Shown in pieces: positions 611-56,952 of a stretch of DNA of 64,000 bases (position 1 is its first letter; each line of letters opens with the position of its first letter). A model generated the notes under the pieces. That model made no database searches and had not been told where the DNA came from. It saw nothing but the letters and a program-made list of their open reading frames with translations. Both the position numbers and the translations under genes were made by a program. Source of the DNA: Gammaproteobacteria bacterium (GTDB lineage Bacteria; Pseudomonadota; Gammaproteobacteria; SZUA-229). The DNA lies in NCBI GenBank assembly GCA_026195255.1, contig JAPHSS010000017.1:49628-113627 (forward strand). The letters are read 5' to 3'.

Positions 611-726
611 GAGTCGTAAGTCGGAAGTCATAAGTCAAAAACGAGACACAAAAAAAGATGCTGCTCCGCAGGAGCACCGCCTGGACTTACGACTTAAGAC
701 TTAAGACTTCTGACTTCTGACTTAGT
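611..726. repeat. 7-bp-periodic inverted repeat element (AGTCNNA heptads), copy 1
   Basis: Left arm 612-639 AGTCGTA AGTCGGA AGTCATA AGTCAAA; central hairpin TGCTCC-GCA-GGAGCA 662-676; right arm 685-726 ACTTACG ACTTAAG ACTTAAG ACTTCTG ACTTCTG ACTTAG (reverse complement of the same heptads). Confidence 0.85.
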
Positions 727-853: not shown

Positions 854-1177
854 CTATCGAGGGCCAGCGTTGGCTTCTGTTTTAGATTGTTCCAGCGCCA
901 GATCGCCCTGGCGTTTAGCTTTATTGGCTAGTTTGATGGCCGTTTCATAGTCACCTTTTTTAGCCGCCTTATCAGCTTTATGTAGTATTTTTATACTGTC
1001 GCGCCATACATAGTTGGCCTCAACGGCCGCTTTAAGTGATTTGTTAGCACTTATCAAAGCTGCGTTGTAGCCTGCTTTAGTTGCAGCAGCAGTGTTGTCG
1101 GAAGTGCCATTACTGGCACACCCAGAAAGCAGTGCAAATGCCAGCGCAATGCCGGCATAGAGTTTAGCGTGGTTCAT
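854..1177 (-). CDS. Small Ala-rich lipoprotein of unknown function
   Basis: 107 aa ORF with lipobox (LLSGC) and repeated Ala/Lys helical segments. Confidence 0.75.
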   Translation of the reverse strand: MNHAKLYAGIALAFALLSGCASNGTSDNTAAATKAGYNAALISANKSLKAAVEANYVWRDSIKILHKADKAAKKGDYETAIKLANKAKRQGDLALEQSKTEANAGPR

Positions 1178-43984: not shown

Positions 43985-43990
43985 AAATAT

Positions 43991-44053
43991 AGTCAAAAGT
44001 TGTAAGTCTTAAGTCTTAAGTCGTAAGTCCAAAGTCCAAAGTCCAAAGTCAAA
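43991..44053. repeat. AGTCNNA heptad repeat, copy 2 (nine units, one orientation)
   Basis: AGTCAAA AGTTGTA AGTCTTA AGTCTTA AGTCGTA AGTCCAA AGTCCAA AGTCCAA AGTCAAA. Confidence 0.9.
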
Positions 44054-48933: not shown

Positions 48934-48951
48934 ACATAGACTTAAATAGTA

Positions 48952-49067
48952 AGTCGTAAGTCTTAAGTCGTAAGTCAAAGCGGTAGCGCCGTAGGCGCTT
49001 ATGTTTTTTTTACTTATGACTTACGGCTAAAGACTTAAGACTAAAGACTTCTGACTTAAGACTAATT
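48952..49067. repeat. 7-bp-periodic inverted repeat element (AGTCNNA heptads), copy 3
   Basis: Left arm 48952-48979 AGTCGTA AGTCTTA AGTCGTA AGTCAAA; hairpin AGCGCC-GTA-GGCGCT 48985-48999; right arm 49012-49067 ACTTATG ACTTACG GCTAAAG ACTTAAG ACTAAAG ACTTCTG ACTTAAG ACTAATT. Confidence 0.9.
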
Positions 49068-56622: not shown

Positions 56623-56790
56623 TCTTGTTCCCATGCTCCTGCGTGGGAATACATAGAGTTAATCTGCTATTCACAATCATTATTTATTTTAAGTATGCAT
56701 TCCCACGGAGGACCGTGCGAACGAGATGAATGACAGATTGTTATGAGCTGAAAGAGATTGCACTGTTCAGGCACGTCTCCATCGGGGAAA
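56623..56790. repeat. Dispersed ~168-bp repeat, copy R (inverted relative to 38741-38906)
   Basis: TCTTGTTCCCATGCTCCTGCGTGGGAATAC...ATCGGGGAAA; reverse complement aligns to 38741-38906 with about 22 differences counted by eye. Confidence 0.9.
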
Positions 56791-56952
56791 AGCACTGTTC
56801 AGGCACATCGCCATCGGGGAAAGGTCTCGTTTTTTGAGCCCTGTCCCCTAAACCCATACCACTAGAAGCTGACAGTGTAGTGAGGCGACTCCGTAAAACT
56901 CTTGATGGCATCACAACAGGGGACAGGGCACAAAAAGCAGTGACCTTTCCCC
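56760..56952. repeat. REP/MITE-like block upstream of fliC
   Basis: Tandem GCACTGTTCAGGCAC(GTC/ATC)(T/G)CCATCGGGGAAA (56760-56791, 56792-56822), then long imperfect inverted repeat GGGGAAAGGTC..GTTTTTTGAGCCCTGTCCCCT / AGGGGACAGGGCACAAAAAGCAGTGACCTTTCCCC. Confidence 0.8.

Follow-up and report, generated by a model that had tools for sequence, protein, structure and literature searches.

What kind of element sets arrays of seven-nucleotide repeats in opposite orientations around a small hairpin? The question was raised by the window, the whole stretch of 64,000 nucleotides of gammaproteobacterial DNA analysed here (contig JAPHSS010000017.1, assembly GCA_026195255.1), in which three sites carry such repeats. 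We read the family as intervening-sequence (IVS)-like RNA-stem insertion elements, some copies of which carry a gene for the 23S rRNA-intervening-sequence protein (IVP) while others are IVP-less derivatives. With a probability of roughly 0.6, copies 1 and 3 of the window are IVP-less members of a small family of insertion elements bordered by inverted 7-nt arrays. The parts of the three sites are as follows.

611-636, plus strand: left arm of copy 1, four heptads ([AG]AGTCNN; GAGTC, AAGTC, AAGTC, AAGTC) in 7-nt phase, then AAA
662-676, no strand assigned: core hairpin of copy 1, TGCTCC-GCA-GGAGCA, a perfect 6-3-6
684-723, minus strand: right arm of copy 1, six GACTTNN heptads, in phase and in inverted orientation
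43990-44050, plus strand: copy 2, a single-armed heptad array starting 5 bp past a stop codon
48951-48976, plus strand: left arm of copy 3, four heptads, with the flgG stop codon 17 bp before
48985-48999, no strand assigned: core hairpin of copy 3, AGCGCC-GTA-GGCGCT, then a T-run on the plus strand
49018-49064, minus strand: right arm of copy 3, spanning seven heptad positions, of which some are degenerate, and ending shortly before flgH

Copy 1 has the layout that the earlier note had given it, with four left heptads, a perfect 6-3-6 hairpin and six inverted right heptads, and copy 3 repeats this layout at 48951-49064, although some of its right-arm units are degenerate. The third site, counted as a further copy in the earlier note, differs: it consists of one arm, and neither an inverted arm nor a hairpin was found at 43990-44050. 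The pattern AAGTCNNAAGTCNNAAGTC matches the window 20 times with at most two mismatches, against 0.09 matches expected by chance, and RNA folding gave z-scores of -4.9 for copy 1 and -5.9 for copy 3. The hairpin of copy 1 is terminator-like, with a T-run after the core on the minus strand, and a lipoprotein ORF (854-1177, minus strand) lies upstream of it.

In what follows, G000 is the source genome, G001, G002, G003 and G004 are its sisters, and L-numbers denote loci. Across the genome, AAGTCNNAAGTCNNAAGTC has 75 exact matches, compared with none for the reversed control pattern. The earlier note had allowed for a genome holding only three copies with no conserved hairpin geometry; the matches instead group into about 23 loci, and the loop is 3 nt long in 38 of 43 cores drawn from four genomes. 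Sixteen of the loci are short and two-armed and one encloses a gene; single-armed arrays also occur among them. The short elements resemble MITEs in being short, ORF-less and dispersed, with terminal inverted repeats. No MITE parent with a transposase and matching ends was found, and the element that shares the ends encodes an IVP. No target duplication was definable, the empty sites being too diverged. Very long arrays of the AAGTCCA or AAGTCGG type, with one arm detected and about 18-20 heptads, were seen at G023:C22:30911-31089 and G008:C204:19289-19404.

A separate repeat of the window lies at 56760-56822 and 56918-56935, where a 32-bp direct repeat, GCACTGTTCAGGCACATCGCCATCGGGGAAAA, is followed by ACAGGGGACAGGGC. 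In G004 and G001, similar sequence occurs at the site orthologous to that of the L033 element, and the repeat may be one of a REP-like family that goes with the resident Y1 transposases.

With the T-rich side placed on the right, the 43 cores have in common AAAGCGG, a stem rich in GC and about 6 bp long, the loop and a T-rich tail. Their best hairpins score 15.9, whereas dinucleotide shuffles reach 10.55 (sd 0.43); the shuffles are a fair control because each hairpin was picked by its pairing and the shuffles were picked identically. Pairing cells, counted in an alignment built without structure, amount to 81.5%, compared with 60.2% in the shuffled set, and stem covariation scores 0.554, whereas the shuffles give 0.180 and none of 500 reached the observed value. 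RNAalifold, run on a MAFFT alignment, returned only three pairs because two hairpin registers were mixed, and pairs were therefore counted directly. The hairpin of the L039 element is kept by compensatory change, reading GGCAGTATTGCC, GCAGCATTGCTGC and GGCAGGTTTTGCCTG in three species. More generally, orthologous copies in sister species retain the hairpin while its sequence is altered, and at G001 sites it persists even where the heptads have decayed. The covariation and the behaviour of these orthologues support the earlier suggestion of selection on structure. The GC stem and following T-run are oriented with the upstream gene in most copies, although not in all. At L037 (G000:C22:63500-67600), the element at 2020-2125 has a core like a textbook intrinsic terminator before a galU-like ORF; at the orthologous site, G004 has a different, equally perfect hairpin and G001 an unrelated one.

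The gene enclosed by AAGTC arms in the source genome is an ORF at 1727-1987 of L032. It matches PF05635, the profile of IVP (also S23), a four-helix-bundle protein, at profile positions 1-44 only, and is therefore a broken copy. Intact IVPs lie between AAGTC arms in sister genomes (L050, L051 and L059), so that the long form has the IVP/S23 ORF, broken in the source genome and intact in the sisters, while copies 1 and 3 have none. In other genera of the family, IVPs lie between different heptads, e.g. GAATAGT and GAAAAGT. The IVP of G003 is identical over 113 residues to that on QIDK01000079.1 (Gammaproteobacteria bacterium isolate SZUA-229). Arrays are present with no IVP detected in G002, G006, G018, G023 and G032, some of these assemblies being incomplete. 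The whole IVP element L059 folds at a z-score of -10.5 with the arms as the stem (the strand opposite to the gene was folded), and inversion and predicted folds agree on a putative RNA stem formed by the terminal inverted repeat. At L055 (G004:C11, ~737 kb), an N stretch breaks the heptad arm beside the IVP gene; it is probably an assembly gap at the repeat. Draft genomes may make arms look shorter than they are. We know of no catalytic activity of IVPs, and they are not clearly basic (median pI 7.9). The solved relatives, PDB 2gsc and 2rld, have five chains each, and 2gsc is reported to be a toroidal homopentamer in work cited in a passage of PMC4990558. A fixed number of five heptads per arm, matching such a pentameric ring, was considered and rejected, as the medians are 5.6 and 7.0 with a wide spread.

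The link between IVP genes and heptads extends across several phyla. We assembled 122 IVP loci from the family, from 80 named contigs of one scan, whose records were titled gammaproteobacteria, deltaproteobacteria, epsilonproteobacteria, Planctomycetes and Lentisphaerae, and from a phylum sample of 30. At period 7, the best 35-nt score has a mean of 20.5 on the upstream side of these genes and 22.5 on the downstream side, compared with 14.0 in controls, and among periods 3 to 12 none but 7 was raised. An array lies on at least one side in 81 of the 122 loci, compared with 7 of 229 single control windows. Left and right arrays compared with each other score 0.697 in inverted orientation, 0.429 in direct orientation and 0.473 across loci, and inverted beats direct in 54 of the 59 loci with both arrays clear. 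The heptad motif is locus-specific, arrays being far more alike within than between IVP loci, and it tracks the IVP protein only where identity exceeds ~70% (Mantel r 0.157). Below that level, motif similarity is unlinked to protein similarity, and the idea that the IVP recognises a specific heptad sequence was dropped as unsupported. Twenty IVP loci were scanned and none lies in rRNA; Rfam gave no relevant match in them. In an independent lineage, of another class and with TAGGCAG heptads, an IVP-carrying array pair occurs in the same genomes as many IVP-less inverted pairs, which are mostly without a hairpin. The hairpin is therefore the lineage-specific part; what is general is that the elements have heptads, that these are inverted, and that a stop codon comes before them. 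The arms of copies 1 and 3 belong to this wider class, in which inverted heptad elements elsewhere enclose an IVP gene.

A facing stop codon lies within 25 bp of the start or end of 20 of 22 short G000 elements (hand count). Among IVP elements, the upstream gene is co-oriented and its stop faces the element in 40 of 44 loci, at a median distance of 3 bp, and 38 of 43 genes on the downstream side are co-oriented as well. As a background, adjacent ORFs of the window run in the same direction in 43 of 56 pairs, their median gap being 96.5 bp. Stop trinucleotides on the sense strand of left arms have a frequency of 0.097, against 0.064 in shuffles, and the arms can therefore close a reading frame that they interrupt.

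Orthologous sites were compared by joining both flanks of each G000 element as one query. G000 and G002 have the element between flgG and flgH, whereas G001 and G004 have an empty site there, without an array. Among 16 further elements, several are not found at the corresponding position in one or two of the sisters, the IVP copy being one that G001 lacks; others are common to G000, G002 and G004 with altered arms, and arm length and composition shift quickly between sister species. The family therefore has a history of gain or loss together with fast heptad turnover. Most of the short elements compared are old, orthologous insertions, and they do not support recent movement.

We propose the following working for the family. 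The presumed complete form would have a single gene between its arms, encoding the PF05635 protein, and the short form of this genus has in its place a GC hairpin accompanied by A and T tracts (AAAGCGG-stem-NNN-stem-T-rich). The element would sit in a transcribed unit, in the sense direction and directly after a stop codon, and in the mRNA its arms would fold into a long stem enclosing the cargo, as in the IVS of 23S rRNA, so that neighbouring genes would tolerate the insert and the stem could be processed, probably by RNase III. Slippage by 7 nt and conversion would let the arms grow, shrink and homogenise, and period and complementarity would be maintained rather than sequence. A working at the level of the RNA stem would fit because of the sense orientation, the place inside transcribed units and the inverted arms. 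Any mobility, past or present, may have come from the IVP protein or from a host activity.

Several observations could also be accommodated if the short elements were host transcription terminators or 3'-end stabilisers around which heptads grew by slippage, the IVP link being incidental. The hairpins resemble intrinsic terminators (copy 1 and the element before galU), they covary and persist at orthologous sites, in G001 beyond heptad decay, and the elements sit past stop codons. We nevertheless consider this explanation unlikely: when T-tracts are compared with genes by eye, about 3 of 15 hairpins are wrongly oriented; copy 3 separates the two members of the flgG-flgH gene pair; most TAGGCAG elements have no hairpin, and IVP elements have an ORF where it would be; and the association of IVP genes with period 7 is seen again in many lineages. 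Any role as terminators may be secondary. That slippage first made the arrays, with IVP genes or hairpins inserted into them later, is very improbable. Arms do change fast between sister species, one-armed arrays exist, and small repeats are reportedly embedded in heptads of Nostoc. However, insertion into a tandem array predicts direct flanks, whereas 54 of 59 loci have inverted ones, and the empty flgG-flgH sites hold no array.

An unrelated transposase, e.g. a resident IS200/RAYT-type (Y1) enzyme, could have moved the elements as MITEs or REPIN-like repeats; we regard this as improbable. Y1 transposase genes occur in all five genomes of the genus (seven matches in G000), and the elements are short, inverted and dispersed, but the search detected no Y1 gene in six of the genomes rich in heptads (G006, G008, G023, G032, G212 and G110), G001 has two Y1 genes yet no AAGTC arrays, and in place of fixed ends the elements have arrays whose copy number and motif vary. 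Mobilisation by a RAYT was rejected, as the distribution of the enzyme does not fit that of the elements. A resident reverse transcriptase, as in an Avd-like IVP retroelement, was rejected as well, RVT_1 having been found in one of ten genomes searched and in none of the genus.

The preferred reading, IVS-like elements with and without an IVP gene, has its closest counterpart in Coxiella, where the S23p ORF of the 23S IVS is preceded by heptads, the IVS has a 28-bp terminal stem, and RNase III cuts at the first heptad (PMC4990558). Shared with the elements described here are the PF05635 protein, heptamers beside the ORF, a terminal inverted stem and a site within a transcribed unit. With this layout, the Coxiella IVS looks like a family member placed in rRNA, a comparison that rests on PMC4990558 and not on sequence analysed here. 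IVSs without an ORF are known as well. The 23S IVSs differ in lying in 23S rRNA, where no G000 element was found; the elements here lie between protein genes past stop codons, are numerous, have longer heptad arms and include a hairpin form that has no IVP. REPIN/RAYT systems (PMC3116915) share small palindromic intergenic elements but have fixed REP ends and a Y1 enzyme, which was undetected in the six heptad-rich genomes. Intergenic heptads of unexplained origin have been described as TAACTGA repeats of Beggiatoaceae (PMC4679880) and as GGGAATC/GGGGATT repeats of Xanthomonas and Nostoc (PMC4692102); accounts of these deal chiefly with direct repeats close to start codons or with the formation of G-quadruplexes, and no inverted IVP element is described for them.

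Our literature search, which lay outside most subscription papers and bioRxiv preprints, returned no paper tying non-rRNA IVP genes to inverted heptads. Already in print are the IVS with S23p, the TAACTGA and GGGAATC heptads and, reportedly, cyanobacterial heptads with small hairpins. The latter are the STRR heptanucleotide repeats of cyanobacteria, in which SDR elements with small hairpins are embedded in Nostoc, as Elhai et al. are said to have described in 2008. The earlier note's likening of the elements to these repeats seems apt. Compared by architecture, they share 7-nt tandem arrays, embedded small hairpins and compensatory changes with the elements here, but the sequences differ and we know of no link to IVPs.

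That arms of this kind enclose, in several phyla, the gene of a ring-shaped protein known from inserts in rRNA genes points to a little-recognised family of tiny elements placed right behind stop codons. To our knowledge, no function is accepted either for IVP proteins (PDB 2gsc, 2rld) or for the heptanucleotide repeats of bacteria, both of them long-standing puzzles, and inverted heptads around IVP genes join the two. A 7-nt period and inverted complementarity combined with free sequence are unusual and need a mechanism of their own. We tentatively suggest, at somewhat less than even odds, that IVP genes across bacterial phyla may be the sole gene of a widespread, undescribed class of RNA-stem insertions, which would have self-homogenising inverted 7-nt arrays, lie directly after operon stop codons and give rise to copies without an IVP. 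The known IVSs of 23S rRNA would be its members or relics, as would perhaps many of the unexplained heptad repeats of bacteria. The link predicts co-transcription, processing of the stem, and gain and loss as a unit.
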